Origin: an uncultured Candidatus Saccharibacteria bacterium
GTDB taxonomy: Bacteria > Patescibacteriota > Saccharimonadia > Saccharimonadales > Saccharimonadaceae
Assembly: GCA_947570505.1 (NCBI GenBank)
Contig: CANOTH010000006.1
Span: 1-41,366 of the forward strand
Length of the DNA: 41,366 bases
Direction of reading: 5' to 3'
Under the pieces are notes generated by a model. That model saw only the letters and a list, made by a program, of their open reading frames with translations. It had not been told where the DNA came from and ran no database searches. The translations under genes and the position numbers were made by a program. This document shows positions 4,466 through 33,613 of this stretch, piece after piece. Each line of letters begins with the position of its first letter. Position 1 is the first letter of the stretch.

Positions 4466-4557
4466 GTTTCTATTAAAACTTAAATTCGGTTCAACTTTAA
4501 CTTCAGTAGACCTAATGTATGGTTAAGAGTTAATTACTTGTATAACCATGCTCAAGT

Positions 4558-5560: not shown

Positions 5561-6874
5561 TTAAATCCCCGGCACAGGGAAGTCAAGAGCCAGCCTTCGT
5601 ACTTCCTCACGCAAGGCTTTTAGCTCGGCTTCATGCGAACCTAGACCATTCTCATTGCCGGCTTCAACGCAAATATCTAGCACTCGTTTCATCCACTCGG
5701 CTACCTTCATCATCTCCTCTGTCCCGAGACCGCGTGTCGTCATAGCTGGAGTTCCCAGTCTCACTCCAGACGGCCGGAAAGCTCCACCTTTATCTGTTGG
5801 TAAAGCATTAGCATTCAGAGTCAATCCTACTTTATCTAAGGCTACTTCATAAAACTTCCCGTCAATTCCAGCAGTACTCTTCACGTCAACTAGAATCAAG
5901 TGATTTTCGGTACCATTACCTTGTAGCTTAAAACCTAGCCGCTTCAATTCTTCGGCTAACACACGCGCATTCTCGACAATCTGATGAGCATAATCCTGAA
6001 ACTCCGGCTGCAAATCTTCCTCAAAGGCCACAGCTTTGGCGGCAATCACGTGCTCCAACGGACCACCTTGCGTGCCAGGGAAGACCGCTCGATCAATCAA
6101 GGTCGGGACATTCTCTAAAGTATGCTCCGGGCGCTTCAGCGGGCTACTAACCTTGCCCATACTCATAATCAAGCCTCCACGTGGGCCGCGCAAAGTCTTA
6201 TGAGTGGTAGAAGTAATCACCTGGAAACCGTGCTCCAGCGGGTTAGGGTGTACACCACCAGCAATCAAACCAGCCACGTGCGCCATGTCCGCCATCAACA
6301 GAATTTCGTAATTATGCTCAGCACTCACCTCCGCGGCAATTTTCGCCACTCGGTCAAAATCCGGAATCTTCATAAAGGCCGAATAACCCACCAAAATCAA
6401 CTTCGGTCGATGTTCACGAGCCAATCGTTCTAGCTCATCATAGTCGATATCACCCTCGTCTGTCACTCCATAGCCGACAAAATTGTAAATCTTCGCACTC
6501 CGGGTCACCGGGGAACCATGGGTTAAGTGTCCACCTGCCGGCAAAGACATGGCTAGAATTGTATCTCCTGGCTGACACCAAGCGAAATAAACCGCCTCGT
6601 TAGCATTCGCCCCAGAATGTGGCTGCACATTCGCATGGTCAGCTTTGAATAGCTTTTTTGCCCGCTCAATCGCCAAGCTTTCAATCTGGTCGACATTCTC
6701 ATTACCGCCATAATAGCGCTTGCCCGGATAGCCTTCACTATATTTATTGGTCAAAACTGACCCCATAGCTTTCAACACGTTGACTGAAACATAATTTTCA
6801 CTTGGAATCAACTCTAACCCCTCACTTTGGCGCTGCTTCTCTAAATCAATTAGCCGAAAAACTTCATCTGTCAT
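5561..6874 (-). CDS. glyA: Serine hydroxymethyltransferase
   Basis: A PLP-dependent cytosolic enzyme that interconverts serine plus tetrahydrofolate with glycine plus 5,10-methylene-THF, supplying one-carbon units. 437 aa, slightly longer than the usual 415-420. Seen are the substrate-binding start [27 protein letters not shown], the PLP region [10 protein letters not shown] and the Schiff-base lysine near residue 226 in [14 protein letters not shown]. The start ATG follows GAGAGGT. A -10 TATAAT with extended TG sits at 6957-6962 on the minus strand, divergent from the tRNA-Phe promoter. DUF2335 follows. Confidence 0.96.
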
Positions 6875-8980: not shown

Positions 8981-9256
8981 CTATACCAAACAGCGGACGG
9001 GTAAACCGTAATAACGATTGTCTGGGCCGCTAGTAGTATAAGTACTAAGGTGATCAAAATGCAAATCATAGGCATGCGCACGAGCAGGTAACGAATAATC
9101 CGCGGCTACACTTGACCAATCGTTGCTGTATGTTCCAGCATGTCTTAAAGCATCATGATCTAAGCGCAGCCACCCGCTACGGACCATATTCCTAGAAATT
9201 GAGTCACTAAGCAAAGACCAGAACCAACAAAATAACACCACAATTGGTGTTATCTG
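8981..9256 (-). pseudogene. Start-less FISUMP/CLec-like C-terminal cassette B
   Basis: An open frame between stops. The domain begins NMVRSGWLRLD, contains NDWSSVAADY and AYDLHF, and ends NRYYGLPVRCLV then TAG at 8981-8983. The 5' anchor is at 9174-9184, the 3' anchor at 8985-9001. A GTG at 9241 could start the frame formally, but it lies inside the terminator of tRNA-Leu and lacks a Shine-Dalgarno, so I take the cassette as headless. Flanked by tRNA-Leu upstream and the 114-nt hairpin downstream. Confidence 0.65.
9227..9253 (-). terminator. Terminator of tRNA-Leu
   Basis: Minus-strand stem ATAACACCA / TGGTGTTAT with a 4-nt loop followed by TTTT, 12 nt behind the tRNA. Confidence 0.75.
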
Positions 9257-9472: not shown

Positions 9473-9501
9473 TTGACGATCTTAAAACGGCATGCTAATA
9501 T
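9473..9501 (+). promoter_or_regulatory. Promoter of the NYN-HEPN operon with leader hairpin
   Basis: TTGACG 9473-9478, 17 nt, extended -10 TGCTAATAT (TAATAT 9496-9501). The short leader holds a hairpin CCCTGG/CCAGGG (9514-9541) directly before the first gene, which may hide or expose its start. Confidence 0.7.
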
Positions 9502-9551
9502 ATAGCCATAGCCCCCTGGTCTGGATTCGTTCCCGCCAGGGATTTTAAGTA

Positions 9552-10181
9552 TTGGAGGTAAACATAAAGACTATAGCATACATTGATGGACAAAACTTTC
9601 TCTACAAAATTGCAGAAAGGGTGGTTGCCTCAGGTCTTACTACTAGCAAACAGGAAGTTAATGCAGTTGATATTCCATATTTGTTAAACCAAGTTTTTCC
9701 AGATGAACAACTGGAAATCCGTTATTATGGTGTTGCTAAGATTCGTCAGCAGCAAGACTATGGCGAAGAAATGAGAGAGAAGTCTATTCAATTTGCCGAT
9801 AATTTACGTCGTATGCGAAACTGTCTGGTTAAGACCGGTGTAGAGTTCCGAGCGACTGGTGTTCTCAAAGTTCGCGACCGCGACGAGTGCAAACGTTGTG
9901 GTGTCACCGACTATAAATTTCAAGAAAAAGGCGTAGACGTTGGATTGGCTGTAGATATCGTTGCTGATTCATTAAGGAACCAAGTCGACCACATTATTCT
10001 AGTTAGTTCCGATACTGATTTGGCGCCAGCCATCAAGATTGCTAAAGAGACTGGTAAACACGTCACTTATGTTGGCTTCGATAATCAAATTACTAGACTT
10101 TTGTCGTCGCTAGCAGATTCCACTCAAATCATTCGTGGCAGTGAAGTTGTTGAGGCATATAGAAGGATGTACGACAAATGA
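9552..10181 (+). CDS. NYN domain (PIN-like) putative ribonuclease
   Basis: About 205-209 aa. The NYN/LabA-like fold is clear: first acidic site AYIDGQNFLY, second QEKGVDVGLAVDIVADS, third IILVSSDTDLAPAI, with three to four Asp that would bind metal for RNA cleavage. A CKRCG pair near residues 113-117 may bind zinc. Start unclear: TTG at 9552 has AGGGA 9 nt upstream, while GGAGG at 9554-9558 would point to an ATA at 9564 as start. The stop overlaps the ATG of the next gene (ATGA), so the two are translationally coupled. NYN proteins act in RNA turnover, maturation or defence; the target is unknown. Confidence 0.85.
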   Translation: MEVNIKTIAYIDGQNFLYKIAERVVASGLTTSKQEVNAVDIPYLLNQVFPDEQLEIRYYGVAKIRQQQDYGEEMREKSIQFADNLRRMRNCLVKTGVEFRATGVLKVRDRDECKRCGVTDYKFQEKGVDVGLAVDIVADSLRNQVDHIILVSSDTDLAPAIKIAKETGKHVTYVGFDNQITRLLSSLADSTQIIRGSEVVEAYRRMYDK

Positions 10182-11515
10182 GCTCAGAACGTGCTAGGCA
10201 GCTTTTCGGACAATGTAAAGACACATACAATAAGTGTATTGGCAGGTATGACGTTCAATATTGCTTCAAGGGTATTGAGATGATGGGCCCCAATGAATTT
10301 GATGACGAATTTAATGTCCCGGCAATATTATTGTTTGAAGAATTATGCAAACACCACAGAAAAATTAACGGCCATTATGATAGCTTCCGATATAATCTAT
10401 TTGAATCTATTTATTTAAATAAAGATTTTAATGAACAGCAGCTCATGCACATATCTCTACCGGCAGCATCATATCAGAAATACAAAGTGCATTTCGAAAT
10501 ATTTTTTAGGAAAGCAACTACTTCTGCTAAGCTTCCGTTTAGATACGAAATTACCGCTAATAAGATAAAGTTTGCATGGTGTAGTCAACATACTGTTACG
10601 GCGGCATTCAATAGTTATCAGACATGTTGTAAAAAAAATTCTAGTATACCTCCATTTACTATAGATCAACAGAGATCTTTATATTTCCCAAAGCTCACGG
10701 AAGTGGACAAAAAGAATATTTATTCTATTACAACTACCGTTAATGCTACTGATGCCTTCGATGCTATGGAAATAGCGCTGTCAAGCTTTGAAATAGTAAG
10801 AAATGCCATTGATATTGCACAAGCCCTGGGCTCCCAAAGTATTCAATTCTTCGGTAAACGTCAAACAGGTCCCGCAGTGCTATATACTGGAATTTGCATT
10901 GCGACCAATATATCAAATCGTAACGATTCACTGTTGAGCAAGCCAGCTGAAAAAGTCTATGAGCTTCCTAAACAGAAGTTGGATTTTACCAATGCTTCTA
11001 GTCGTATGCAATTATTCCGAGATATTATAAAAGCCTTGAACGACAATGATGCCGTAATTAGTAAACGCATACGACCTGTGGCTAACGAACTATCTTTAGC
11101 ATATTCCACGTATAATCCTGGACTGCGTCAGTTGAGTTACTGGCGGTGCCTAGAGATTGCTACCGTCAAGTCTGGCGAAAACAGAAAAGAAAAAGATATA
11201 ATAAAAATTTTTCAGAATTATTATTCCAACCAATTTTGGAAGCAAATGGGAGAAGTGGTACTAAAATTGCGCAACACATATGTACACCAAGGCGAATTGA
11301 TAGATTCTGGTGGTTTTTCTAGTGACTACTATCTAAATTGGTCTCAACAATATGCCGAGAAAGCACTTCTTATCCTGCTTTACTTGTATAAACATCGGGC
11401 GATTTGGGGCAACGAGCAACAAATTAATAATTTTTTTGATCACTATGCAGAGTCGAACGATTCACTTAAGGTTGCTCAGCAAATTCTGTCTGCCCGATTA
11501 AGACACAAACCATGA
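10178..11515 (+). CDS. Protein with HEPN-like RX4H motif, partner of NYN nuclease
   Basis: 445 aa, no signal peptide. Most of the protein is not recognised. The C-terminal helical part has RNTYVH (residues 365-370), the RX4H arrangement of HEPN ribonucleases, after a helix YSNQFWKQMGEVVLKL and before a long helix with AEKALLILLYLYKHR; this order resembles ApeA-type HEPN domains seen in defence systems. It overlaps the NYN gene by 4 nt, which argues for a joint function and fixed stoichiometry. A two-nuclease RNA-targeting defence or RNA-processing module is an inference. The HEPN assignment rests on motif and helix pattern only. Confidence 0.7.
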   Translation: MSSERARQLFGQCKDTYNKCIGRYDVQYCFKGIEMMGPNEFDDEFNVPAILLFEELCKHHRKINGHYDSFRYNLFESIYLNKDFNEQQLMHISLPAASYQKYKVHFEIFFRKATTSAKLPFRYEITANKIKFAWCSQHTVTAAFNSYQTCCKKNSSIPPFTIDQQRSLYFPKLTEVDKKNIYSITTTVNATDAFDAMEIALSSFEIVRNAIDIAQALGSQSIQFFGKRQTGPAVLYTGICIATNISNRNDSLLSKPAEKVYELPKQKLDFTNASSRMQLFRDIIKALNDNDAVISKRIRPVANELSLAYSTYNPGLRQLSYWRCLEIATVKSGENRKEKDIIKIFQNYYSNQFWKQMGEVVLKLRNTYVHQGELIDSGGFSSDYYLNWSQQYAEKALLILLYLYKHRAIWGNEQQINNFFDHYAESNDSLKVAQQILSARLRHKP

Positions 11516-11636: not shown

Positions 11637-11721
11637 GAAGAGAGAAACGTAGGAGTAAAAACACGGAATTAATCTGAAGAAAAATGCCGACCAGATCAAT
11701 TCAAAATAATCAACTGATTCA

Positions 11722-11943
11722 TTACCAGTATACCAAACAGCGGACGGGGAGACCGAACCAACGATCCCATGGGCCGTGGGACGGGCGAGATACAGACGAA
11801 TTAAACTCAAACCAGTAAGAGTTAGCCGAGGTCGCAGAGTAGTAAGCTACAGAGGTACGTGACCAATCGTTGCCATTGAGGCCCAAGTACCACAGTAAGC
11901 CGTGGTACAAGTTGACACCCCCGCTACGGACGAAGCCACTCCG
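11722..11943 (-). pseudogene. Start-less FISUMP/CLec-like C-terminal cassette C
   Basis: Stop-bounded frame without start. It reads SGFVRSGGVNLYHG, then NDWSRTSVAYYSATSA, YWFEF, and RPSHGPWDRWFGLPVRCLVYW before TAA at 11722-11724. The TGA stop upstream (11944-11946) is only four codons before the first anchor (11920-11934). It lies between the 3' end of the NYN-HEPN operon and a terminator of a small RNA candidate, so no promoter reads into it directly. Confidence 0.7.
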
Positions 11944-20424: not shown

Positions 20425-21336
20425 ATGAAAAAATTTTTCTTAACATGTTTGATTATGAGCTTATTATTCGGTAGTATCGTGGCTCATGCAGAAGATCTGA
20501 GACCAGATTATTTAATTATGGTCAATCGAGCTGCTAATTGTATTACGGTTTATCAACAGGACGTGAACAGGGAATTTACTATTCCGGTCATTGCCTTTGT
20601 CTGCTCTACGGGTAAGAATAATAAAACTCTGACCGGTAGTTTCAAAACCGGTAGTCAATATAAGTGGCGCAAAATGGACGGCGGGGTCTATACTCAATAT
20701 GCTACGAGGTTTGATGGCAGCCGATTATTTCATTCTGTGCCATACTATCATCAAAAACCTAATCAGCTGGAATGGGGTCATTACAATCGCTTAGGCGAAC
20801 AAGCTTCGGCGGGTTGCGTCCGGTTATCTTGTATTGACGCGAAGTGGATTTATGATCATTGTAAGCCAGGCACTCAGGTCGTAGTTTATGATGATGCTGA
20901 GAATCCTGGACCATTAGGTAAACCGACTAGTATGCAGATTGCGTCTGATAATCCTCATCGCAGTTGGGATCCTACGGACCCCAACCCAGCTAATCCATGG
21001 ATCACAGTTTTACCCCATTTACAGCTGACTACTAATACTTTAGGAGGCAACGTGCTGTATGTGCCTGCGGGGTCAAACTTAGAGACTTTGCAATCCGCTA
21101 TCGGCTTATTTTCGGCTGACGGCACACCATATCTCCCAGGCACATATCAACTGGAAGTTTATGGATACTATGATTTAAATCAAGTGGGTAGCTATGAACT
21201 ATATGTTCGGGGATTTGACCTCGCAGCTGGTTTGCGTGCCGACCAAAGCTTTACTCTAATAGTTAATCCAATCTCAGAGAATGCTGAGGTCATGCTATCT
21301 TCTATAGAGTCAATGGCTAATACCGTGGATGGCTGA
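20425..21336 (+). CDS. Secreted L,D-transpeptidase (YkuD family)
   Basis: 303 aa. Signal peptide at residues 1-22 (KKFFLTCLIMSLLFGSIVAHA). The YkuD domain follows at about 26-155: ITVYQQD, PVIAFVCSTGKNN, His103 in LFHSVPYY, and the catalytic SAGCVRLSCIDAKWIYDH with Cys131. The last 100 residues look like a beta-sandwich of Ig type. It would crosslink or anchor to peptidoglycan outside the membrane. NPGPLGKPT and the general style recall Bacillota enzymes, so transfer is possible, also because a dead acquired gene lies upstream. Own promoter and terminator. Confidence 0.9.
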   Translation: MKKFFLTCLIMSLLFGSIVAHAEDLRPDYLIMVNRAANCITVYQQDVNREFTIPVIAFVCSTGKNNKTLTGSFKTGSQYKWRKMDGGVYTQYATRFDGSRLFHSVPYYHQKPNQLEWGHYNRLGEQASAGCVRLSCIDAKWIYDHCKPGTQVVVYDDAENPGPLGKPTSMQIASDNPHRSWDPTDPNPANPWITVLPHLQLTTNTLGGNVLYVPAGSNLETLQSAIGLFSADGTPYLPGTYQLEVYGYYDLNQVGSYELYVRGFDLAAGLRADQSFTLIVNPISENAEVMLSSIESMANTVDG

Positions 21337-21364
21337 CAAAACATAGAAAATCACCCCATACAAA

Positions 21365-21392
21365 AAGACCACCAGCTCTACCGGTGGTCTTC
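21365..21392 (+). terminator. Terminator of the L,D-transpeptidase gene
   Basis: Stem AAGACCACC / GGTGGTCTT with a 9-nt loop, followed by CTCATTTT. Confidence 0.8.
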
Positions 21393-21625
21393 TCATTTTC
21401 AAAATCATGTGTCTAGACGTCACTGATGATACAAGGATAATTACTTATATCCCTAATTTACACGTTTCTACACGGTTTCTTATGTAATGAATATAGGCGA
21501 AGTATTCCTAAAATAGTTAAGAGATTTCGTCCTAATGACGATATATCTATTAAGATTCATAAAGAATCTTGTTTTAGTAACTATCGTTTTATGTGTCGAC
21601 GTATTAGAGAGGTTGGTGGTTATGT

Positions 21626-22810
21626 ATGTCAAGAAGCCACGAATTAGACAGGCTGAAAGCTGAGCAAGATGCAGCATTTCAGCGCAAACAGGAAGCATAT
21701 CAGAATTACAAATGTGCCAAAGAAAGCACAGACATTGCCCATGATGTTATGCAGAGAGCATGGGACGAACGTGTTCGTGCACGAGAGAAAATGAATGAGG
21801 CTTTTGAACAACGCAAGGAGTCCTTTGAACATCACGATTCCGTTTGGGGAGAGTATGCGCGTATTCGAGATTATAATAATTCGCAGATTGAATCGCTGAA
21901 GTATGATGCTGATTACGAGCATCGTGCCATGCAAGATTGTTTTGACCGAGCTAGTGATGCTTATACATATGGCAACAAATCGGAGGCTCCAATATTGTCT
22001 CAAGAAGGACATGAACATAAGGAACGTCGAGATGAACTTAATGCAGAAATTAGCAGGCTTGCCAATGAAGTAAAATCCGCCAAGGCATCTGCCGAGATGC
22101 GTGCACCAAAAGTAGATTCTTCTAGTTTTGAATCTGCCAAAGCAGAATTTGAGCGGTTAAAAGAAATTCATGAATCCGCTCAAACAGAATTTAAGAACCA
22201 GAAAGCGGAAAGAGATAGATTGAAGTGCATATTTGATGCGCTCCAAGAAGAACATATGCGATGCCAGAAAGCCTTCCAAAATAGACTCGCGCTGATTAAA
22301 TCAGATAATCAACGTGAACGCGATACAATTCTAGATAAAGCGGGGATTGCTTATTACGAACGAGAAGATGCTAAGATTGTTCAAAAGAATGATGGTACTA
22401 CCCAAATCTATCACGGTGGGGTTGGTGGAGGCGATGGTTTAGGACATGGTCACACAGCTATTGATAATAATGGAAATGTAACTTATGCTCGAGGAGCATT
22501 TGAGGAGCATGGTGGGGAGAATTATGTGGAGAGTCGTCTTGCTATTGGGACAGATTATTTCGATGGCAAACCAGCTAAGGTGCGTCAAAAACCCGGAAAA
22601 CCTGAGGGGTGGCGGGATGTATTTTTTGTCAATTCAGGAAATATAGGCGACGACATCGGCCATGGGCACATCGTTCTTGACCCCGATAATAATGTACACT
22701 ATTATCGAGATGTATGGCAAGAGCATCGCGATGAGAATGGACGGCGGGATGATTTTTTAATAGACGAAGATGCAGATATAAAAAAACAAGGTGATACTCA
22801 TAGAATATAA
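21626..22810 (+). CDS. Coiled-coil protein with two C-terminal GHGH repeats
   Basis: 394 aa, no signal peptide. Residues 1-245 are long charged helices (E, K, R, Q, A rich, His and Met interspersed) typical of coiled coil. The last 145 residues hold two copies of a short unit: GLGHGHTAIDNNGNVTYAR with FEEHGGEN, and DIGHGHIVLDPDNNVHYYR with WQEHRDEN. The pattern GxGHGHxxxDxxxNVxYxR...EH could bind metal or a ligand. I do not recognise the family. No clear Shine-Dalgarno (GGTTGGTGG lies upstream), and an ATG 4 nt earlier is in another frame. Ends in a strong terminator. Confidence 0.8.
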   Translation: MSRSHELDRLKAEQDAAFQRKQEAYQNYKCAKESTDIAHDVMQRAWDERVRAREKMNEAFEQRKESFEHHDSVWGEYARIRDYNNSQIESLKYDADYEHRAMQDCFDRASDAYTYGNKSEAPILSQEGHEHKERRDELNAEISRLANEVKSAKASAEMRAPKVDSSSFESAKAEFERLKEIHESAQTEFKNQKAERDRLKCIFDALQEEHMRCQKAFQNRLALIKSDNQRERDTILDKAGIAYYEREDAKIVQKNDGTTQIYHGGVGGGDGLGHGHTAIDNNGNVTYARGAFEEHGGENYVESRLAIGTDYFDGKPAKVRQKPGKPEGWRDVFFVNSGNIGDDIGHGHIVLDPDNNVHYYRDVWQEHRDENGRRDDFLIDEDADIKKQGDTHRI

Positions 22811-23309: not shown

Positions 23310-24929
23310 TTATTTTGTGGATTTTGGTGTTTCTGCGGATAAATCTATGGTTATAACTGCTCCGTCATAAAACCTGAAGCTCAATGTTTTATCCAACGAT
23401 ACCGTAACATTTTCTATCATGGCATTCCAAAGGTCAGCATCAAATTCAGCTATATAGTCAGTTTGTTCCACTAGGAAACTCATAGAACGTGCGACCTGTT
23501 CCTTCCGTGTCTGTTGGTCAAGGAGCTGCTTCCTGATACTGGCTATTTTTTCCTCCTGTTCCTGACAGGCCGCATCCATTTCGTTAAACTTACGGTTGTA
23601 TTCAGTCTGGTCCTGTATCTGCCTTGTATTTTCCTCCATGTATTGACGAAGGTTTGCCAGAAGCCGGGCGTGTTCAGACGTCGCCGCATGAAGCTGTTCT
23701 TCCAGGAGACTGGTGTCACTTAGCTCTGTCTGTATTTCTTTTAGTCTGGCGATATGGCTGGCTTTGTCATCTAACAACTGGTTAAAGGCTGTTACAAAAG
23801 CATTTTTAATCTCATCTTCATTTAAGTTTGGAGTACTACAATGAGACTCATTATCATATTTACAGTTGCACTGCCAGATAGATTTACGGTATTTACTGTT
23901 ACTGTGCCAGACTTTTCTGCCATAGAATCCGCCACATTCACCGCAGATAATCTTTGCATTGAGCGGGCTGCTGCGGTGCAGCTGATGGCGGTGTGGTCTT
24001 CGTCGTTCAATCTCTTTCTGCACCAAGTCAAAAGTTTCAGCATCAATAATGGCCGGGTGCGAGTTTTCAATATAATACTGCGGAACCTCGCCACAGTTCT
24101 TTTTAACCTTCTTGGTTAAAAAGTCTGCTGTATAAGTTTTCTGGAGTAGAGCATCACCTTTATATTTCTCATTTTGGAGAATGCTCATAATAGTAGAAAC
24201 ACTCCATTTTTTCTTCCCGGCTGGTGTAGGTATGCCCTTCGCAGTAAGATGATCGGCAATTGACCGTACTGTCGAACCGCCAAGAAAAAGCTGGTAGATT
24301 TCACGGATAATTTCAGCCTCATGCTCCACAATCCTAGGCAGTCCGTCCTCGCCTTTCTCATAGCCTAGAAAATGTTTATAGGCAAGCGAAAATTTGCCTT
24401 CCTCCATTGACCGCCGCTTGCCCCATGTCACGTTTTCGCTGATGGAACGGCTTTCTTCCTGTGCCAGACTCCCCATGATGGTCAGCATCACTTCGCCTTT
24501 GGTACCAAGGGTATAAATGTTTTCTTTCTCAAAATACACCTCTACTTTATGATCTTTCAGGGTACGGACGGTCGTGAGGGTATCGACCGTATTGCGAGCG
24601 AAGCGGCTGATGGATTTTGTTAAAATCAGGTCGATTTTGCCGCTTAATGCGTCATTAACCATCCGGTTAAACCCTTCCCGTTTTCTGATATTGGTACCGG
24701 AAATACCTTCATCGGTGTATACGTCAATAAACTCCCAGCTAGGATTGCCTTTGATGTAGCGGGTGTAAAATTCCACCTGTGCTTCGTAGCTCGAGAGCTG
24801 TTCCTCGGAATCAGTAGAAACACGCGCATAGGCGGCTACTCGTTTTCTGGGCTGTTCTATGTCTGGAGTACTTGATGTCAGGCTGGCCCGGCTTTCGATT
24901 TTCTGTACCGTTCTAATTGTTTCTGCCAT
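23310..24929 (-). CDS. Large serine recombinase 1 (integrase)
   Basis: 539 aa. Resolvase N-terminal domain with VAAYARVSTDSEEQLSSYEA (catalytic Ser near residue 38) and LTKSISRFARNTVDTL, a recombinase domain (KGIPTPAGKKKWSVSTIMSI), a zinc ribbon (CGECGGFYGRKV, then CNCKYDNESHC) and a long coiled coil (about residues 395-490). It cuts and joins attachment sites to insert and excise the element. Last gene of the operon, overlapping recombinase 2 by 17 nt. Its 3' end next to host-type DNA marks the likely left attachment end. Bacillota-type sequence. Confidence 0.93.
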   Translation of the reverse strand: MAETIRTVQKIESRASLTSSTPDIEQPRKRVAAYARVSTDSEEQLSSYEAQVEFYTRYIKGNPSWEFIDVYTDEGISGTNIRKREGFNRMVNDALSGKIDLILTKSISRFARNTVDTLTTVRTLKDHKVEVYFEKENIYTLGTKGEVMLTIMGSLAQEESRSISENVTWGKRRSMEEGKFSLAYKHFLGYEKGEDGLPRIVEHEAEIIREIYQLFLGGSTVRSIADHLTAKGIPTPAGKKKWSVSTIMSILQNEKYKGDALLQKTYTADFLTKKVKKNCGEVPQYYIENSHPAIIDAETFDLVQKEIERRRPHRHQLHRSSPLNAKIICGECGGFYGRKVWHSNSKYRKSIWQCNCKYDNESHCSTPNLNEDEIKNAFVTAFNQLLDDKASHIARLKEIQTELSDTSLLEEQLHAATSEHARLLANLRQYMEENTRQIQDQTEYNRKFNEMDAACQEQEEKIASIRKQLLDQQTRKEQVARSMSFLVEQTDYIAEFDADLWNAMIENVTVSLDKTLSFRFYDGAVITIDLSAETPKSTK

Positions 24930-26247
24930 TTTTCTTCATCCTTTCTCTAAATTGTAATTGGCGGTCGCGTGCTTCCTGTTTCATACTCTCAGTCCAGCTT
25001 TCTTTTCTGGAAGGGTGATGCCACGGTACCTCTATGATACGGCCGTCAGTCAATACGTAAATTAGCTGGTTGTGTGCTGGCACCTGTATTTCTTTAATAT
25101 GCTGAAGCAGCATCTCACGGTCTAATTCTGTTACGTTCAAAACTGCTAAGGTTATGCTAATGAGAATATTTTCTGGAATTTGCTGTGAGGGGCATTTACT
25201 TTTTCCATGAGTGTTATAGGTTTCACAAATCCAGACCGGCTTGGCATATTTACTGTTGTTATTGGCTGTTTTTCTCCGGTATGTCCGTCCACAAATTCCG
25301 CAGTATAGCATTCCTGTAAACAAATGTGGATCGGATGACCCATGTTTCCAGTAATAGGTTTCTTCGCGATGTTTTAACTCCAGTTGAACCTGTCTGAACG
25401 TTTCCCGGTCAATGATCGCTTCGTGATTATCCTTAACCAGATACATTGGAAGTTCGCCGTGGTTTATGACTTTTTTCTTACTGATATGGTCTGACTGATA
25501 GGTTTTCTGTAACAATAAATCGCCGACATACCGCTCATTGCGCAAGATCCCGTATATGGTGCTTATGCTCCAGAATTTACTGGACTTAGCTGGTATCCCC
25601 ATATTGGTGAGTTTTTTGGCGATGGCTCCCCTGCCCATTCCGGAGAGAAAATCCGTAAATATCATCTGAACAATCTGGGCTTCTTCCGGTACGACATAAA
25701 TCAGGCCATCCTTTAAACGATATCCCAGCATATTCCCATTTACAGGATGTCCCTGCTCGAACATTTTACGGATGCGCCATTTACAGTTTTCTGAGGCTGA
25801 CCGGCTCTCTTCCTGCGCAAAGGATGCCAAGAGCGTCAGCATCAGTTCGCCGTCCATGCTCATGGTGTGGATATTTTCTTTCTCGAAATAAATATCTATC
25901 CCCAAAGATTTCAGTTCACGTGCAGTTTCCAGTAGTGTCAGGGTATTGCGCGCCAGTCTGGTGACGGATTTTGTAATCACCATGTCAATTTTTCCATTTC
26001 TACAGTCTGTAAGCAGCCGTTGGAACTCTGGTCTGCCTTCTTTGGTGCCAGTCAGGGCTTCATCAGCATAGATTCCGGCAAGCTCCCAGTCCCCCCGATT
26101 ACCAATATAATTATTGTAATAACTGATCTGAACAGACAGTGAATGGAGCTGGGCATCTTTTCCCGAAGATACACGGGCATAAGCTGCAACTTTCTTGCGC
26201 TTTACAGGTGCAGGTGCGGTCTGATTTAGTTTTGTAATTTTTCTCAT
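24913..26247 (-). CDS. Large serine recombinase 2
   Basis: 444 aa. Same family: VAAYARVSSGKDAQLHSLSV (Ser near 27), ITKSVTRLARNTLTLLETA, NMGIPAKSSKFWSISTIYGI, zinc ribbon CGICGRTYRRK with a later CETYNTHGKSKC. After the ribbon only about 90 residues follow, so the long coiled coil of recombinase 1 is missing. In clostridial elements two or three such genes stand in tandem and may act together. Start behind GGAGG. 81 nt from the DUF4314 gene. Confidence 0.93.
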   Translation of the reverse strand: MRKITKLNQTAPAPVKRKKVAAYARVSSGKDAQLHSLSVQISYYNNYIGNRGDWELAGIYADEALTGTKEGRPEFQRLLTDCRNGKIDMVITKSVTRLARNTLTLLETARELKSLGIDIYFEKENIHTMSMDGELMLTLLASFAQEESRSASENCKWRIRKMFEQGHPVNGNMLGYRLKDGLIYVVPEEAQIVQMIFTDFLSGMGRGAIAKKLTNMGIPAKSSKFWSISTIYGILRNERYVGDLLLQKTYQSDHISKKKVINHGELPMYLVKDNHEAIIDRETFRQVQLELKHREETYYWKHGSSDPHLFTGMLYCGICGRTYRRKTANNNSKYAKPVWICETYNTHGKSKCPSQQIPENILISITLAVLNVTELDREMLLQHIKEIQVPAHNQLIYVLTDGRIIEVPWHHPSRKESWTESMKQEARDRQLQFRERMKKNGRNN

Positions 26248-26328
26248 AATACTGCCTCCATTTCGTTTTGGGTTTTCGCCACCCTAAAGTTGGAGGGGAT
26301 TCTAAAGAATCCCCTCATAAATAAGGTT

Positions 26329-26559
26329 CTACAGTTTTCTTATACGGTCGATGCCATAAACAACACCGAGGTGGGAGCCGCAGTCCCAGTCTACAAATAC
26401 AGTGCCGGTATCATCTACCAAATTGACTGTACCTTGTTCGCCGGGAGACAATCTGCTGTATGGGTCATCCATATTTATCAGCTCCACCCGACAGCCTTCA
26501 GGATACTGTTCCCGTATCCGTTCCACTGTTTTTTTGCTGGAAAAGCTGTTATTTCCCAT
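26329..26559 (-). CDS. DUF4314 protein
   Basis: 76 aa. KTVERIREQYPEGCRVELIN, then DDPYSRLSPGEQGTVNLVDD and GTVFVDWDCGSHLGVVYGID, is the full DUF4314 pattern, a small beta-barrel-like protein common in Bacillota conjugative elements and phages. Function unknown. The start MGNNS follows AAAGGAT and overlaps the preceding gene by 11 nt. Confidence 0.85.
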   Translation of the reverse strand: MGNNSFSSKKTVERIREQYPEGCRVELINMDDPYSRLSPGEQGTVNLVDDTGTVFVDWDCGSHLGVVYGIDRIRKL

Positions 26560-27301
26560 AAGGATTATCCTTTTTGTTTTCTGATTTGGGTGTATCAATG
26601 ACAGTAACTTCAAATGTAATCATTTCTGTGTTTGTCTCGGTCTGTTCTGGTCGGTGTCCTGATTTCCAGCTGCTGTTTCCGGTGAGGCTGCCAAGCAGTA
26701 TCTTTCTGGCTGTTTTATATTCATCGCCGATAAACCCCAGACGGATTAAGAAAAGACGCAGGGTAAATTTATCATTCTGGGTATTTTTTTCTTTTGCTGT
26801 GACACGTTTCTGTGTCCGCGCCATTTGACAGAGGGCGGTAGCTAACTGACAGTAAGCTTTTACCTCTCCTTCCAGCCCATGCAGGGTAAACCAGGGGAAT
26901 TTAAGGGAAGTGCCAGTGTCAATGATTTTAAGGGTGTCGGTCTGAAGCGCCTTCTTTAGTACAGTACTTTTGCTGGCAATAATCCTTTTGAGGTTCAAAA
27001 TCTTCTCATCGGTCAGTCCATTCTTTGGTAGCTCAACCGTGAGGGTATTAGTATCTGTCTCATCACTTGCAGGCTCATAACCCTGTTCCTTGAGGCAGTT
27101 AAGCAGCTGCTCAATTTTCTCAGGTTCTGTATCTTCCCGGAAGGACAGGATACCATTTTTATCGACACTACAGTAGCCGATGTCATAGGTAAAAGTCGGG
27201 GCTTTCAGGTAAACAGGAGCCTCACCTAATATATTGCTGACTGCCTGCACCAGTGCCTTGCGTTCTGCGCCTGTCCGGTTATAGCTATATTGAATGCTCA
27301 T
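26549..27301 (-). CDS. Virulence-associated-type protein of mobile elements
   Basis: 250 aa; resembles proteins annotated as virulence protein in clostridial conjugative elements (SIQYSYNRTGAERKALVQAV, PTFTYDIGYCSVDKNG, LPKNGLTDEKILNLKRIIAS). That name has no functional proof. Its C-terminal part (RLFLIRLGFIGDEYKTARKI, GNSSWKSG) matches the C-terminal end of the amidoligase gene of the same operon, so both seem to share one small domain. Start behind AAAGGAG. Soluble. Confidence 0.75.
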   Translation of the reverse strand: MSIQYSYNRTGAERKALVQAVSNILGEAPVYLKAPTFTYDIGYCSVDKNGILSFREDTEPEKIEQLLNCLKEQGYEPASDETDTNTLTVELPKNGLTDEKILNLKRIIASKSTVLKKALQTDTLKIIDTGTSLKFPWFTLHGLEGEVKAYCQLATALCQMARTQKRVTAKEKNTQNDKFTLRLFLIRLGFIGDEYKTARKILLGSLTGNSSWKSGHRPEQTETNTEMITFEVTVIDTPKSENKKDNPYGK

Positions 27302-27397
27302 AGCATTTACTCCTTTCTTTCTGGCTTACACTATCTATCACTCAGACCATGTAAAAAAGCAAGTCTGATGATCAGAATCATGTAAAAAATCTGTGGA

Positions 27398-27577
27398 CTA
27401 ACTGCGGCCGCCCCTAAGAATAAAATCTATGTATTCTTCACGGTTAGCCTGAATAAACACTACCAGTTCATAAAAGCCTTCACGGTTGGCAATATATTGG
27501 ACAGCATAGGCATCAAACATATTGGTTTCGGCTGTTGCCCGGATGGCTAAAATCTGCTGTTTAACGATTTCGGTCAT
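27398..27577 (-). CDS. DUF5049 protein
   Basis: 59 aa: MTEIVKQQILAIRATAETNM, then FDAYAVQYIANREGFYELVV and FIQANREEYIDFILRG. This matches DUF5049, found in Bacillota elements; function unknown. ATG 27577 lies behind GGGAG; a GTG three codons earlier is too close to it. Starts 6 nt after the end of the broken GGCT gene. Confidence 0.8.
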   Translation of the reverse strand: MTEIVKQQILAIRATAETNMFDAYAVQYIANREGFYELVVFIQANREEYIDFILRGGRS

Positions 27578-27582
27578 AGCAA

Positions 27583-28068
27583 TCACACTCCCTTCATGGA
27601 TTCATCTGCCGCCTGATGTAAAATGTTTTCATCAAATCCGGCACTTTTGTAGCCTGTCATAATCGTCTCAAGGTAGCCCGTGGATGGGACACCATAAGGA
27701 TGATTTTCCTCATTCATGATGTAGGCCATTGCAGAAATCTGTCTGTCATTCAGGATGATTTTTAGAGTCTCTTTGCGGTAAAGATATGGCCAGCCCTAAT
27801 AACGGTCAAGAGCCTGCTCATCCTGTGAACGGAGTTTCCAGACCAGGACTGGTACATGATATCCGGGGCTGCGTTCAATGGTAGTAACCGCAGAATTGTT
27901 AGCACCACGGAACATCAGCCGCCAGTTCTTCAGGATTGTCTGTCCGGCTACCTCTGCGGTGGGACAGCGGTGTGCCATCTGGGTGAGATTTAAGTTGGAA
28001 CCATAGGCGATATAAAATCTTTCTGTATGATTATTCAGGTTACTGGTTTTAGCTGGATTATTCTTCAT
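27583..28068 (-). pseudogene. Gamma-glutamylcyclotransferase-like gene interrupted by an in-frame amber
   Basis: The first 91 codons give a GGCT/AIG2-like start (RFYIAYGSNLNLTQMAHRCP, then VWKLRSQDEQALDRY) and stop at TAG (27796-27798). Translation in the same frame continues directly with GWPYLYRKETLKIILNDR and AYIMNEENHPYGVPSTGYLE for 70 codons to TGA at 27583-27585. The usual family text at the stop is RYEGWP, so a GAG to TAG change is likely. Alternatives are readthrough or a base error. In intact form it would cleave gamma-glutamyl amides, next to an amidoligase, a known pairing. Confidence 0.85.
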
Positions 28069-29020
28069 TGCTGTTTCCTCCACTTTCTACATGATGTGTG
28101 CTAATATGGCTTCTGACGTTCTCACGTGAGCCGTACCGCCAGGCAGCATTACCATCAAGGTGCTTGTACAGATGTTCCCGGCAACTCTTAAACTCATCGC
28201 CGATAAAACCGATGCGGTTTAAGTAGGTGCGCATGGCAAAACGTTCATTCTCTTCCTGGACTTTATGATATCTGGCACTTTTCTGTGTCAGTGCCTGATG
28301 ATTAAGTGCCAGGGCAAGGACAACATATGCCCTGATTTTTCCGGCATGCAGTGTGCCGTTAAACCCCCTGAGTTCTACAGTGTGATTTCCATGGAAGAAA
28401 CTGCGCAGGTTCAGAAAGTGATAACGGCTGTCATGATAATGCGTATTCCGGTTACGGGGATATCCCTCGTACCAGATATTCTCAACCTGCTTGAGGGATA
28501 CGGGTTTTACCTTGTTAATCCTCTCTACCAGATAGGCATCCATCTTTTTGCAATACCTTATCCTTTCCGGCGCAATCTGCAAGGCCTTATAGAACAGGTC
28601 ATTGCGGCTGGCAATGATATTGATGAAGTTGCGGATGCTTCTGGTCGTGTGTTCGTTTCCGTCCAGATGGATATGGATACCGCAGGAGTTATTGCAAAAT
28701 CCTCCGGCCTTCCTCAGCCTCCTGGCCAGTCCCTGCAAGGTGTCAATGTCCTCGCGGTAAAGCAGGATGGGGCTGACTAACTCCACACTATATTTGTTGT
28801 TAGCGGCGATAATCTGTCCGTTCTCTTTGCGCTGGCATTTGAGACTTCCATCATACATGAACTTCCAGATTCTCCCGTCTTCAGCCCGGACTTCGTAGAC
28901 TTCATAATATCCGCCCGTAAAGCTGGCGCTGCATCCGAGATAGCCTGCGGCGGTTTCTGCCGCTTTCTGACGGGTAATACCCGTAAATTCGATTTCGATC
29001 CCAAAACTCTTAGTAAACAT
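28058..29020 (-). CDS. Amidoligase family enzyme (COOH-NH2 ligase type)
   Basis: 320 aa. FGIEIEFTG at the start and VELVSPILLYREDIDTL, then FCNNSCGIHIHLDG and FHGNHTVELRGFNGTLHAGK, are the hallmarks of the amidoligase_2 family, glutamine-synthetase-like ATP-dependent enzymes that join carboxyl and amino groups, possibly on peptides or modified metabolites. Downstream lies the GGCT gene with an 11-nt overlap, the classical neighbour. A C-terminal extension (RTYLNRIGFIGDEFKSCREH, GNAAWRYG) is shared with the virulence-associated-type protein. Start behind AAAGGAGGG. Confidence 0.9.
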   Translation of the reverse strand: MFTKSFGIEIEFTGITRQKAAETAAGYLGCSASFTGGYYEVYEVRAEDGRIWKFMYDGSLKCQRKENGQIIAANNKYSVELVSPILLYREDIDTLQGLARRLRKAGGFCNNSCGIHIHLDGNEHTTRSIRNFINIIASRNDLFYKALQIAPERIRYCKKMDAYLVERINKVKPVSLKQVENIWYEGYPRNRNTHYHDSRYHFLNLRSFFHGNHTVELRGFNGTLHAGKIRAYVVLALALNHQALTQKSARYHKVQEENERFAMRTYLNRIGFIGDEFKSCREHLYKHLDGNAAWRYGSRENVRSHISTHHVESGGNSNEE

Positions 29021-29299
29021 TTGGCTCTGCCCTCCTTTTTTTGCAGCCTGATGTCAGTCGCTAAGAGGGCATCCTGCGATGCACCTCATGAACTGAGCGC
29101 ACCGTAGCTGCCAAAACTGTTAATTGGTTACTTTTAGCTTATAATCCTGATACCTCCTCTCAAACTCATTTATTCTGCCAGTTTGTCCAGATAAGACAGC
29201 AGGCATTGTATTTTGCGGTATATAGCTATAAAAAATGAGTAATATTGCCGCGCATATACCGCTGTTATAAGAAGCCGGCTACAAGTTAGCGCCTTGTCA

Positions 29300-29692
29300 T
29301 TATGGTAATCCCTCCCCGTAACGGCTGAGATTGTAGCAGTCCCGTCCGCAGTATCGGCGATTTTTATTTCCAAAACTGATAAACTTTTCTCCGCACTGGC
29401 GGCAGGTCAGGATATATGGCTGTTTATGCCGGCTGTGATTCCACCACGCATAGCGGCACTGGTCGCAACAGAAAATTCTTTTTCTGCCCCCGGAAATCTC
29501 GATAAGCGGTTTCCCGCAGTTTTTGCACGCAGCAACATCTGTATCCTTCATAGGAAGTGGTTTAAGGCCGCTGCGGCGGCAGATTGATTTAACTGTATTT
29601 TTGGACATGAGCAGCGATTCCGCAATTTCTGCATATGGCTGTCCCTGCTGGTACAGTGTCAGGACTGCCTGTTTCTTTATCTCCGGTGTCAT
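29300..29692 (-). CDS. HTH protein with two zinc-ribbon-like motifs
   Basis: 130 aa. First a helix-turn-helix (QAVLTLYQQGQPYAEIAESL, then MSKNTVKSICRR), then CKNCGKPLIEI...FCCDQCR and CRQCGEKF...YCGRDC, two zinc-binding ribbons. Likely a DNA-binding regulator of the mobile element; similar proteins occur in clostridial conjugative elements. Start behind AAAGGAG. About 280 nt separate it from the amidoligase gene; there I see only a possible second promoter region (29040-29299) and no further gene. Confidence 0.75.
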   Translation of the reverse strand: MTPEIKKQAVLTLYQQGQPYAEIAESLLMSKNTVKSICRRSGLKPLPMKDTDVAACKNCGKPLIEISGGRKRIFCCDQCRYAWWNHSRHKQPYILTCRQCGEKFISFGNKNRRYCGRDCYNLSRYGEGLP

Positions 29693-29784
29693 ATCGATTC
29701 TCCTTTCTCATTACCACTGCAAAATAATATAAATCATATAGATTTTCTCAATCCTGTCACCAAGTAGCATGTGCCCAAGCCCTG

Positions 29785-30261
29785 GGCGCAGCTAAACGGG
29801 TAAAGACCGGATTACCTGACAGAAGTTGTTTTGCTTTCCGCCTATTTTCTGTCCTTTATTTCTAGCTCCAGCCTGAGCAGATGCCTGCAAAGTTCGTCTG
29901 CCTCTTTGGCTGTTTTATAGTCCCCATTTTTTAATGCTTCATAGAAAGCTTCCCGTAGAAACGTGGTCAGACTGTTACAGTCAAGTGTGATATCTACATC
30001 AGCCTGCAGCAGTATTCCAGACACTTTTTCTATAATCAGCGCATCTATGTTTTTCATACGACAGTATTCTTCGCGGGGATAGCATTCATTTATAAAAGCA
30101 ATGATTCTTTCGTTTAGCATGGCTATGCTGCCCAGCAATGAAATAGCCTGGTTAGTAGTTGTTCGCATAGTTGTCTTCTTTGGATTAGATTAATTACTAA
30201 AAATTGCATCAAGCAAAACGGTTCTCCTGTTCTGGGTTCTGTCTGCCCGTTTAGCTGCGCC
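29785..30261. repeat. 16-bp perfect inverted repeats flanking the 108-aa gene
   Basis: GGCGCAGCTAAACGGG at 29785-29800 and its exact reverse complement at 30246-30261. The enclosed piece carries the whole gene 29842-30168 and nothing else. Confidence 0.85.
29842..30168 (-). CDS. Hypothetical element protein, 108 aa
   Basis: Not recognised. Soluble and helical, with MLNERIIAFINECYPREEYC and a C-terminal DELCRHLLRLELEIKDRK. The Shine-Dalgarno is weak (AAAGAAG). It lies between the Replic_Relax and HTH genes and is enclosed by 16-bp inverted repeats. Its place in a conserved type of operon suggests a mobile-element accessory role. Confidence 0.6.
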   Translation of the reverse strand: MRTTTNQAISLLGSIAMLNERIIAFINECYPREEYCRMKNIDALIIEKVSGILLQADVDITLDCNSLTTFLREAFYEALKNGDYKTAKEADELCRHLLRLELEIKDRK

Positions 30262-30286
30262 AGAGGTTTGGATACAGCCAGGTGGT

Positions 30287-31237
30287 CTAGCACAGCATGT
30301 CTCCTTCGCCTCCCTGACAGATAAGTTCTTCCAGTTCATCAGCAGTGATTACCGCAAACAGTCGTGGCTGTTTATCAAAAGCTGCGCGGATATGTTCCAG
30401 CAGATGCTGCTTTCTTACGGTGTCCGGCACAATCCAGACAGTTAAGGGAAAGACACCTGATTCTTTCTGTTCCAGACCACTGCGGTAATACTGGTGGTAT
30501 CTTCTGCATTTTTCTATCACTTTGGTGGGCGATTCCGTATCAAGGTCTATTTCCAGAAACCAACGGTCTTCATATTCACCGGATACCGTAATGGCATAAA
30601 GATCAGGTTTAAGGGAAAGACAGATCCCGCGGTCACTGTAAGACCGCCAGCATTCCGGCTCCGGCTGTAACTCAGCCAGCTCCATCTGATGTTTACGGCA
30701 TAGTTCCATGAGCTGTATGGAAACTTCGGCAACTGCAAGGGTGTGTGCCAGAAAATAGGGGGAAGGCTCAAAGAAGCGTCTGTTTGCCGCCTCTTTCTGG
30801 TCATGTAGCCGCAGCAGTCGTTCTCCGGCATGGGAAAGATACCAGATAAGCGAACTCGACCCAGCCCTCACTCCGCCAATCCGCCGGGATAAAGTGTCAA
30901 TCAGTCCTAATTCCTTTAGCTTTTTGAGGCAGCGGCTGGCAGCTCTCAGGGCGGCGGTAGAAGTAACAGCCTCCATGAACACCAGTCTCTGCACCTGCCC
31001 TGTCATCAGGTAGCGATGCCGCTGGATAGCAAGAAGCGCCTCCTTATCTTGGGCTTTCAGGCATGCGTCCAGTTCCTCAAGCTGCCGACGGGAAAGCCGG
31101 TGCCTCCCACCAGCGGGAGTATCAGTAGCAGAAGGGGGATTACAATATGAATCGCATACCTTATATCGGGAAAAGTCCGTAAGCTGGGGCTTTCTGGGTT
31201 CTGTTTTACTGTCCTGGCTGGTCATACGGTTAGTCAT
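30287..31237 (-). CDS. Replication-relaxation (Replic_Relax) family protein
   Basis: 316 aa. RHRLSRRQLEELDACLKAQD, then LLAIQRHRYLMTGQVQRLVF with a winged-helix pattern, AASRCLKKLKELGLIDTLSR and FLAHTLAVAEVSIQL, later FLEIDLDTESPTKVIEKCRR. This is the Replic_Relax family linked to plasmid replication or transfer in Gram-positive elements. It overlaps the coupling protein gene by 4 nt (ATGA), so translation is coupled; together they may recognise and deliver the element DNA. Start at MTNRM behind GGAGG. Confidence 0.85.
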   Translation of the reverse strand: MTNRMTSQDSKTEPRKPQLTDFSRYKVCDSYCNPPSATDTPAGGRHRLSRRQLEELDACLKAQDKEALLAIQRHRYLMTGQVQRLVFMEAVTSTAALRAASRCLKKLKELGLIDTLSRRIGGVRAGSSSLIWYLSHAGERLLRLHDQKEAANRRFFEPSPYFLAHTLAVAEVSIQLMELCRKHQMELAELQPEPECWRSYSDRGICLSLKPDLYAITVSGEYEDRWFLEIDLDTESPTKVIEKCRRYHQYYRSGLEQKESGVFPLTVWIVPDTVRKQHLLEHIRAAFDKQPRLFAVITADELEELICQGGEGDMLC

Positions 31238-33396
31238 AAGCGCTTCCTCCTTCCAATAGCTGCGCCCTCCCATTCCTCTTCGGGAATACATCCATCGGCA
31301 AACATTTTGAGGTATTCTTCCTCAACCTGGCTGGCGGGTATGCCATAAGCTGACTGGCTCAGGGCTTTAAGCTCGGCCGCCTCCCTGATGGCAGGAATGG
31401 GCGGCAGAGTGCGTCCCCTCACCCAGCCGGTATTACGTCCGCCGGACTGGAATGAAGTATAAATCTCATAACGTGGTAAGCTCATAAAATCTTCTGGTGT
31501 CAGTTCTGGTGCCATCGCCGCAAAATCTTTTGCATCCTTAGCATTTAATCCGAACACAATTTTGTTCCTGGCATTCGCATCAATTCCTGCCCGTATTTCT
31601 GTAGGCAGCTGGTCGCGGTACTGATGAGCCAGTGTCAGTGCCATGCCGAGTCCTCTGGCCTGGGCTAATGCGTCCGACAAGTCTGTAGGAAGGCTGAGGT
31701 AATTCTGCAGCTCATCTATATATACTCCAACAATGTGCCTGCGCTCCGGCGGCACGTTTGCCCGCGAAAGTGCCAGTGTCCAGGTTAAGCCGACAATGAG
31801 GCTGCCGATGAGCCGGGCTGATTCACTCCCTATCAGACTTTTGTTCAAGGGTACGAGTACAATTCTGCGTTTATGGAACAGGTCTGTCAGATTGAACTTT
31901 GGTTTTGCCTGTCCGAGGACACTGCGCAGCCCTTTGCGGAATAAGAGCTGGCGCAGCTTGTTTAGGACAGGTTCGATCCACTGGTGGCGCTCAGTCTCCC
32001 TAAGGGCATCAAACTGCTCCCAGAATGGGCAAAGAGCAACTTTGTCTTTCACTTGGCCGGTGATTTTTTGGCGGAAACCATCATCTGTGAGCAAAGGCGG
32101 CAGCCAGAGAAGTGTAGCGCCGTCTATATCCGCCAGTGTTATCAAGGCAGCGCTGAGCACATCCTGGATCCTTACACCCCATGAGTCTGACCATATTTCT
32201 TTCAGGACACCCAAAACGGCATCGGCAATTAAAGCCGGATTTCCATAGTCCCTGAATGCCAGAGGGTTAAAGCCTGCCGGGCAAGGATCGGATGGGTCGA
32301 GTACTACCACCTCATCTGTCCGCTTTTCTGGAATTCTAGCCAAGATATCATTAACCATATCTGTTTTGGGATCAATGACGAGTACACTCCGTCCAGCCCT
32401 GATATCCGCTAAAATCAGATGCTGCATCGCTGTGGATTTACCGCTGCCCGTCGGTCCGATCAAATGTACGTGTTCCAGTCCATCACGTGGAGAGATACTG
32501 AGTTTTTTAGGTGCTGCGATATCCATGCTGATGGCGAAACTGCGGTCATTCTGTAAATTAGTTGGAGTCCTGTACCATTCAGGCGGCAATGTCAGTTTAG
32601 GGTGAAGTCCCGGAAGTCCGGGCAGTTCTTCCTCGCCTGTCGGAAGTAGCAGGAAGTTTGCCAGTTCTTTAATTGATAATCGTAAAGGGAAGTGCCAGGG
32701 GATATGGGCAGTGTTGAGATGAATGGGGTTTTCTACTTCTTCACTGATTCGTACCCCGGCGGATTCCAAGACTTTAAGGGCACTGATGATACTTCGACAG
32801 TGCGTAGCGGCTCCGCTTCCAGCAGATCCAATCCGTACTATAGTCTGGAAAGCCTGCTGTTCGGCTTTCTCTCTGATGGTTTTACGGCTCTCTGCTGAGG
32901 CTTTTTCTACATCTCCAAGTATGACACTGAGCCACGAGGCATGGGGGTCAGACAGGTTGTTCGAAACTGGGGAGGGGGCATAAGCCCGTCCCAGAATTAC
33001 CTGTAATACCGTTTCTGTATCCCCCTTACTTTCTGTCAATGCTGCCAGTCCTGCCCGTACCACCGCTTTGGTCATGTCTGTCCGAAGCGATAGTGATGGA
33101 TGACTGATTTTGAGCTGTCTTGCGGTATCAACTAAAGAACGGTCATTTACACGGATGTTGCTAAACTGGGCTTCCCCATGTGCCTTAAAGACTGCTTCAA
33201 TACTGTGAATGTATTGCTGGTCAGCCCCCAAAAGATAGCTGACTGTTCCTTTTCTCCCTCTTACTTCCAAGATGACTACTCCACGGGGCGAGAGGGCGGC
33301 CAGATGGGAAAGAACTTCCCAGACAGTTTCCAGTTCATAAGGTCTGTGTAAGTAGACCTCCCTCCAGCAGATGTTTTCTATTTTGTGTTTTCTCAT
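31234..33396 (-). CDS. VirD4/TraG-like type IV coupling ATPase
   Basis: 720 aa. Walker A GPTGSGKST at residues 314-322, then VLVIDPKTDMVNDI, Walker B-type VYIDELQNYL, and ALAQARGLGMALTLAHQYRD with RNKIVFGLNAKDAKDF, all as in conjugation coupling proteins. The N-terminal 300 residues are not membrane-like, so it lacks the usual VirD4 anchor; a separate 65-aa membrane protein is encoded just upstream and could replace it. It would bring DNA to a transfer channel, possibly one from another element, as no VirB4 gene is visible. Start MRKHK behind AAAGGAG. Confidence 0.9.
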   Translation of the reverse strand: MRKHKIENICWREVYLHRPYELETVWEVLSHLAALSPRGVVILEVRGRKGTVSYLLGADQQYIHSIEAVFKAHGEAQFSNIRVNDRSLVDTARQLKISHPSLSLRTDMTKAVVRAGLAALTESKGDTETVLQVILGRAYAPSPVSNNLSDPHASWLSVILGDVEKASAESRKTIREKAEQQAFQTIVRIGSAGSGAATHCRSIISALKVLESAGVRISEEVENPIHLNTAHIPWHFPLRLSIKELANFLLLPTGEEELPGLPGLHPKLTLPPEWYRTPTNLQNDRSFAISMDIAAPKKLSISPRDGLEHVHLIGPTGSGKSTAMQHLILADIRAGRSVLVIDPKTDMVNDILARIPEKRTDEVVVLDPSDPCPAGFNPLAFRDYGNPALIADAVLGVLKEIWSDSWGVRIQDVLSAALITLADIDGATLLWLPPLLTDDGFRQKITGQVKDKVALCPFWEQFDALRETERHQWIEPVLNKLRQLLFRKGLRSVLGQAKPKFNLTDLFHKRRIVLVPLNKSLIGSESARLIGSLIVGLTWTLALSRANVPPERRHIVGVYIDELQNYLSLPTDLSDALAQARGLGMALTLAHQYRDQLPTEIRAGIDANARNKIVFGLNAKDAKDFAAMAPELTPEDFMSLPRYEIYTSFQSGGRNTGWVRGRTLPPIPAIREAAELKALSQSAYGIPASQVEEEYLKMFADGCIPEEEWEGAAIGRRKRL

Positions 33397-33412
33397 AACC
33401 CACTCCTTTCTG

Positions 33413-33610
33413 CTACCATTTTCCCATGCCACTGCGAATGAACTTCCAGATGCGCCAGCCGATAATGATAGCAAGCAATATGGCGGCAATAATCAGCAGT
33501 ACCGGCCAGATTTCTATCAGAATGTTGATGCCTGCGCGGATTAAGAGAATACTGAGCAGGAAGATAAAAGCACATTCCAGCAGGCGGTTTAATAATCCTT
33601 TTGGCTCCAA
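33413..33610 (-). CDS. Small membrane protein, 65 aa, TTG start
   Basis: Two hydrophobic stretches, FIFLLSILLIRAGINILIEI and WPVLLIIAAILLAIIIGWRI, then a basic tail WKFIRSGMGKW. The TTG at 33610 is chosen because AGGAGG lies 8 nt upstream; an ATG 6 nt earlier starts a different frame without membrane pattern. It sits between the MT-A70 gene and the coupling ATPase, and may serve as membrane partner of the latter. Confidence 0.65.
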   Translation of the reverse strand: MEPKGLLNRLLECAFIFLLSILLIRAGINILIEIWPVLLIIAAILLAIIIGWRIWKFIRSGMGKW

Positions 33611-33613
33611 ACA

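Follow-up and report, generated by a model that had tools for sequence, protein, structure and literature searches.

Type III toxin-antitoxin systems (ToxIN, CptIN, TenpIN, and AbiQ) are arranged in the order of a promoter, a structured small RNA, and a nuclease gene. Their four recognition elements are the promoter, the repeats, the terminator, and the nuclease gene (PMC8860590). AbiF, an Abi_2-type HEPN protein of C. difficile, is a non-ToxN RNase-type protein and is also preceded by a small RNA, RCd22. This RNA carries two motifs, has its own promoter and terminator, and is an antitoxin neutralizing AbiF both in cis and in trans (PMC12373285). HEC-09 of PADLOC, a family of NYN proteins of the LabA/DUF88 type, is only a candidate defense family and had no link to phage resistance in one survey (PMC12447246). 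No associated RNA is described for these NYN proteins in the literature searched. ApeA-type HEPN proteins have a large N-terminal part and a C-terminal helical domain with RX4H. ApeA is also found in operons of restriction-modification systems (PMC3710099).

The window analyzed here is a stretch of 41,366 nucleotides, contig C6 of the 72-contig, 1.23-Mb genome of an uncultured Candidatus Saccharibacteria bacterium (completeness 96%, contamination 6.5%). The most important feature of the locus is its promoter with a leader hairpin, both of which the first-pass annotation had recognized. The promoter is of the sigma-70 type (9473–9501, + strand). TTGACG at 9473–9478 and TAATAT at 9496–9501 are separated by 17 nt, and the promoter scan finds an extended −10 (TGC TAATAT). 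The hairpin (9504–9550, + strand) pairs 9514–9520 with 9535–9541, contains an inner stem GGA/UCC, and ends in a U-rich tail. Its folding energy is −16.3 kcal/mol (z −2.8), and it receives 46.5 bits from a covariance model that includes the window hairpin among its 19 sequences. An Rfam search with the hairpin gave no match. In the tail, AUUUUAAG, the U-run is weak and the terminator scan makes no call; most relatives have a U-run after the hairpin.

A Shine-Dalgarno sequence, GGAGGT (9554–9559, + strand), lies directly 3' of the hairpin and is also apparent in the alignment of leaders. The gene at 9552–10181 (+ strand) encodes a LabA/DUF88-like NYN-domain ribonuclease. Pfam NYN (PF01936) matches the product with an E-value of 9e-16 and 59.1 bits against a curated cut-off of 24.2, and the HEC-09 profile matches with an E-value of 5.6e-17 over positions 3–147 of 203. 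The motifs YIDGQN (residue 10), DVGLAVD (residue 129), and SSDTD (residue 152) were the basis on which the NYN fold had been assigned at first sight. Their acidic residues D12, D129, D154, and D156 are invariant in an alignment of 18 relatives, and with the Pfam match they confirm the assignment. The protein also has a CxxC pair (CKRCG, residue 113) and an EKGVDVG motif. The position of the start is uncertain because TTG at 9552, the only usable standard start, runs into the Shine-Dalgarno sequence, and close homologues have their ATG where the window has ATA (9564–9566). The same genome has a second NYN copy, and in both copies ATA stands behind a perfect GGAGGT (9552–9566 in the window and 5827–5841, minus strand, in L031, the locus of the second copy). 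From these sequences it is possible that ATA initiation is kept in both.

The pairing of the hairpin is conserved. In a plain MAFFT alignment of 19 NYN leaders, none of the six core pairs is broken and 23 changes are two-sided. The covariation scores 0.56, compared with 0.23 for shuffles, and is destroyed when the pairing partners are shifted by 1–3 columns. Among 34 hairpin copies aligned by fitting to the model, 55 cells are changed on both sides. A promoter with at least 9 of 12 matches precedes 34 of 36 hairpin copies, compared with about 12% of shuffles. Almost all NYN relatives in the family, down to about 28% identity, share one upstream layout: the sigma-70 promoter, the hairpin within about 12 nt of it, and then a U-rich stretch.

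The covariance model made from NYN leaders was applied to 199 genomes of the family with a threshold of more than 30 bits. Genes of this NYN family are patchily distributed and found in 25 of these genomes, the hairpin is found in 27, and the two are shared by 21 genomes (3.4 expected, p 3e-19). There are 32 matches over the threshold, and 24 of them adjoin a NYN gene. Clear members of the NYN family without the hairpin are rare. In the same genome, genes of other NYN families (L056 and L057) do not have the hairpin. Model matches below about 27 bits in the family are seemingly ordinary terminators at gene ends, as are most of the weak matches inspected outside the family.

An independent test used 27 NYN loci from other families, which were collected by protein profile and of which none was used in the model. 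With filters off, the 12 best matches (E < 0.06) all abut a NYN gene. By eye, a promoter and a hairpin are seen in about 19 of 24 NYN loci of other families. A promoter with a 40–50-nt hairpin adjoins the NYN family throughout Patescibacteria, and the hairpin is the conserved partner of the nuclease. The papers searched, which did not take in most subscription papers and preprints, describe no partner RNA for a NYN nuclease.

In other phyla, plasmids carry NYN relatives with about 25% identity. Such genes on plasmids of Carboxydocella, Leptospira, Microbacterium, Klebsiella, Serratia, and E. coli, and one in a gut phage, are preceded by strongly structured RNAs (z −3.3 to −7.3). The upstream structure is weaker in Methylobacterium and Cobetia, and no structured leader is seen in Rhizobium (z 0.2). 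The covariance model found no match in the plasmid NYN leaders of other phyla; these RNAs share the layout, not the sequence. In the E. coli plasmid CP057950 (L183 1296–2148), which belongs to small mobilizable plasmids, a promoter, about 3.5 hairpin repeats of about 33 nt, and a terminator hairpin precede the ATG of NYN. The last repeat carries paired changes, from CCTGTGG/CCGCAGG to CCTACGG/CCGTAGG. The terminator was recognized visually and in the fold; a simple scan made no call.

The comparison with type III systems gives a mixed picture for the window. The promoter lies upstream of the RNA, and a structured non-coding RNA adjoins the nuclease gene. Unlike in type III systems, the window has a single hairpin in place of a tandem repeat array, no pseudoknot is seen, and the nuclease, whose activity is predicted, is NYN/PIN-like and does not have the ToxN fold. 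A true repeat array is present in the E. coli plasmid relative only, which also has a terminator hairpin and so shows all four elements used for recognition of type III systems (PMC8860590). The locus may work like a type III system and is not filed as a member because it has neither the repeat array nor the ToxN fold. As at AbiF loci, a small RNA stands before the gene of a non-ToxN protein of the RNase type, but AbiF is a HEPN/Abi_2 protein rather than NYN, and the RNA motifs are unrelated.

By analogy with type III toxin-antitoxin and AbiF systems, the following logic is proposed. The hairpin RNA gene (9473–9550) would be paired with the NYN ribonuclease (9552–10181), and its strong promoter would make the RNA in excess over the NYN mRNA. 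The RNA would bind the nuclease and hold it inactive. Shutdown of host transcription or destruction of RNA, for example by a phage, would free the nuclease, and the freed nuclease would cut cellular or phage RNA, with toxicity or defense as the outcome. The HEPN-like protein encoded by the next gene may be a second, exchangeable effector or sensor that this genome has added. Whether the locus is such an RNA-neutralized NYN ribonuclease module with an added HEPN-type protein is an even call. A defense or toxin role of the NYN part is plausible because of the type III-like linkage with a small RNA and the match to HEC-09. Some features do not fit well: the single hairpin with its weak U-run, the hairpins without NYN at dnaJ, ileS, and galU, the Rhizobium NYN without a structured leader, and the standing of HEC-09 as a mere candidate family (PMC12447246).

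Orphan hairpins occur in six genomes, some before Fic (L108) or CdiA_C (L114) and others before housekeeping genes. Together with the rarity of NYN genes without the hairpin, this is the pattern of an antitoxin and was counted in favor of the neutralized-nuclease reading. The two orphans before toxin-like genes are at 4542–4588 in L108, before Fic, and at 4590–4635 in L114, before a CdiA_C nuclease-like gene, and no NYN gene of the family is present in either genome. They hint that the RNA leader may serve further toxin-like genes.

More tentatively, hairpin-controlled NYN nucleases might represent an undescribed superfamily of RNA-antitoxin systems, conserved throughout Patescibacteria, also carried by plasmids and phages of other phyla, with repeat arrays in E. 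coli, and able to acquire exchangeable second effectors such as the HEPN-like protein of the window. To our knowledge, NYN nucleases of the LabA/DUF88 type occur widely, and most have no known function; a partner RNA conserved with them, if true, would give them a mechanism. It would also add a nuclease fold to the RNA-neutralized toxins beside ToxN, AbiF, and AvcD, and Patescibacteria, which are poorly understood, would gain an RNA-based toxin or defense system. The natural E. coli plasmids with the repeat-array version offer a convenient setting in which to test for type III-like behavior.

The best surviving alternative, still an unlikely one, is that the hairpin is an autoregulatory leader. 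It would be a cis-acting 5' UTR or attenuator, and the NYN ribonuclease, with a housekeeping or a stress function, would bind or cut it to control the NYN mRNA, in the manner in which RNase E and RNase III control theirs. At most loci of Patescibacteria the hairpin is directly upstream of NYN on the same strand, at the 5' end of the mRNA and often with a U-run, as would be expected of a purely cis-acting leader, and in the window the Shine-Dalgarno sequence follows it directly. However, in L032 the hairpin and NYN are oriented divergently, in L033 (whose NYN gene has an internal TGA) and L040 the hairpin lies downstream, and in L133 of Dojkabacteria it is convergent with NYN at the 3' end of that gene; all these copies have a promoter of their own. 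They indicate that the hairpin is not just a 5' UTR but a small RNA gene. Tandem copies, as spaced pairs, are seen in L049, L110, and L111. By eye, a second −10 box is seen at many loci between the hairpin and the ATG, and the NYN mRNA therefore need not contain the hairpin. The patchy distribution of NYN, in 25 of 199 genomes, also speaks against this reading.

It is less probable again that the RNA is a guide or cofactor which activates or directs the NYN nuclease as a ribonucleoprotein effector, rather than inhibiting it. The one-to-one linkage of RNA and protein across the phylum would suit such an effector, as would the upper stem and loop of the hairpin, which are conserved in groups. 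But the RNA of 40–50 nt is nearly all hairpin and has no obvious variable segment for a guide, and orphan RNAs without the nuclease are tolerated.

The first-pass annotation saw the core of the locus elsewhere, in the pair of the NYN gene and the gene behind it, taken together as a possible defense operon. If this pair is itself a defense system, the hairpin would be incidental. The second gene (gene 2; 10178–11515, + strand) encodes 445 aa and is translationally coupled to NYN. As had been described, its start at 10178 lies inside the NYN stop (CAAATGAGC), making a 4-nt ATGA overlap. This overlap, the shared promoter, and the RNase-type character of both proteins speak for a pair, as does a HEPN relative near a restriction-modification system. 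However, among the 199 genomes of the family gene 2 is found here only, and the phylum sample of 380 and the class sample of 86 genomes yielded one relative, in Dojkabacteria, without a NYN neighbor. The family, class, and phylum samples showed no other case in which homologues of both genes occur together. The pair is rejected as a conserved module because its partners do not co-occur, the very observation that the first-pass annotation had named as counting against it, and a NYN-HEPN defense system with an incidental hairpin is very improbable.

The paralogous NYN block also has another partner. The second NYN copy of the genome, on contig C1, is 83% identical in protein, and the duplicated block consists of the promoter, the hairpin, and NYN only (9473–10171 in the window), with leaders 94% identical. 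A different second gene, for a 285-aa protein, stands behind it. This gene (L031 4272–5129, minus strand) has a GC content of 0.36, low like that of gene 2, and adjoins a C-terminal piece of a C5-methylase. A guess that its product is a DUF4238 protein was unsupported. Elsewhere, the genes after NYN resemble uvrC, ileS, dnaJ, galE, gpmA, efp, and others, as named by eye.

Least probable of all is a generic promoter with a 5' hairpin that many unrelated genes of the lineage use, NYN being one user, for although 8 of the 32 strong matches are away from NYN (at Fic, CdiA_C, dnaJ, ileS, galU, and a coiled-coil ORF), the only two strong copies in the window's own genome are both at NYN, the enrichment at NYN is estimated as roughly thousand-fold, and the best matches in other families are again at NYN.

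For gene 2, searches of Pfam, NCBIfam, PADLOC, and PHROGs gave no family that passes the threshold. Its large N-terminal part and C-terminal RX4H resemble ApeA, to which it had been thought worth comparing; unlike ApeA proteins, it has no match to the ApeA profiles of Pfam and PADLOC at E-values up to 10. The RX4H motif, RNTYVH, is present as first described (residues 365–370; 11270–11287, + strand) and is predicted to be catalytic. By itself RX4H is weak evidence, since it turns up in 39% of shuffled versions of the protein. The sole detected relative, a Candidatus Dojkabacteria protein of 423 aa, is 26% identical over 244 aligned columns and conserves R365, N366, and H370 (RNSLVH). A restriction-modification system, with a DNA methylase and an endonuclease of the ScaI type, is encoded about 2 kb away from it. 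Searches of 84,980 species genomes, of plasmids and phages, and of viral contigs gave no further relative. Apart from G309, the weak tblastn matches seem spurious; one of them, G355, proved on inspection to be an unrelated membrane protein.

HEPN domains have RX4-6H at the end of helix 3, in which R is followed by a polar residue, typically N (PMC3710099). In gene 2, N follows R, and in an AlphaFold2 model of the C-terminus built from the two sequences, RX4H is at the end of helix 81–100. The model is all-helical and of low confidence (pLDDT 58, pTM 0.59). With it, VIA-align puts HEPN domains in the top four rows with Z-scores of only 6.1–5.6, and Foldseek found no significant match. Single-sequence folding (pLDDT 34) was uninformative. 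A HEPN-like helical domain is thus predicted at residues ~295–405 (11060–11392, + strand), and the C-terminal ~150 residues are likely, not proven, to be HEPN-like. The HEPN-like C-terminus suggested earlier is upheld by the conserved residues and the first rank of HEPN, and the low confidence of the model keeps it provisional. The HEPN-like part takes up roughly the C-terminal 150 residues, which leaves ~290 residues, not 360 as first given, for the N-terminal part without a family match.

A surface-protein-like module, NDWS...RYYGLPVRCLV, is present in three fragments on the same strand (8981–9241, 11700–11940, and 40020–40310, all minus). The NYN-HEPN operon and its neighboring tRNA lie between two of them, as though the operon were placed among the remnants of a recombining cassette. 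At 20425–22810, the window encodes a YkuD L,D-transpeptidase and a DUF1771 coiled-coil protein. An element of the integrative or conjugative type at 23310–34225 contains two large serine recombinases, an amidoligase, a replication-relaxation protein, a T4SS coupling ATPase, and an MT-A70 methylase. Its position inside a Patescibacteria contig points to either horizontal transfer or a mis-binned contig.
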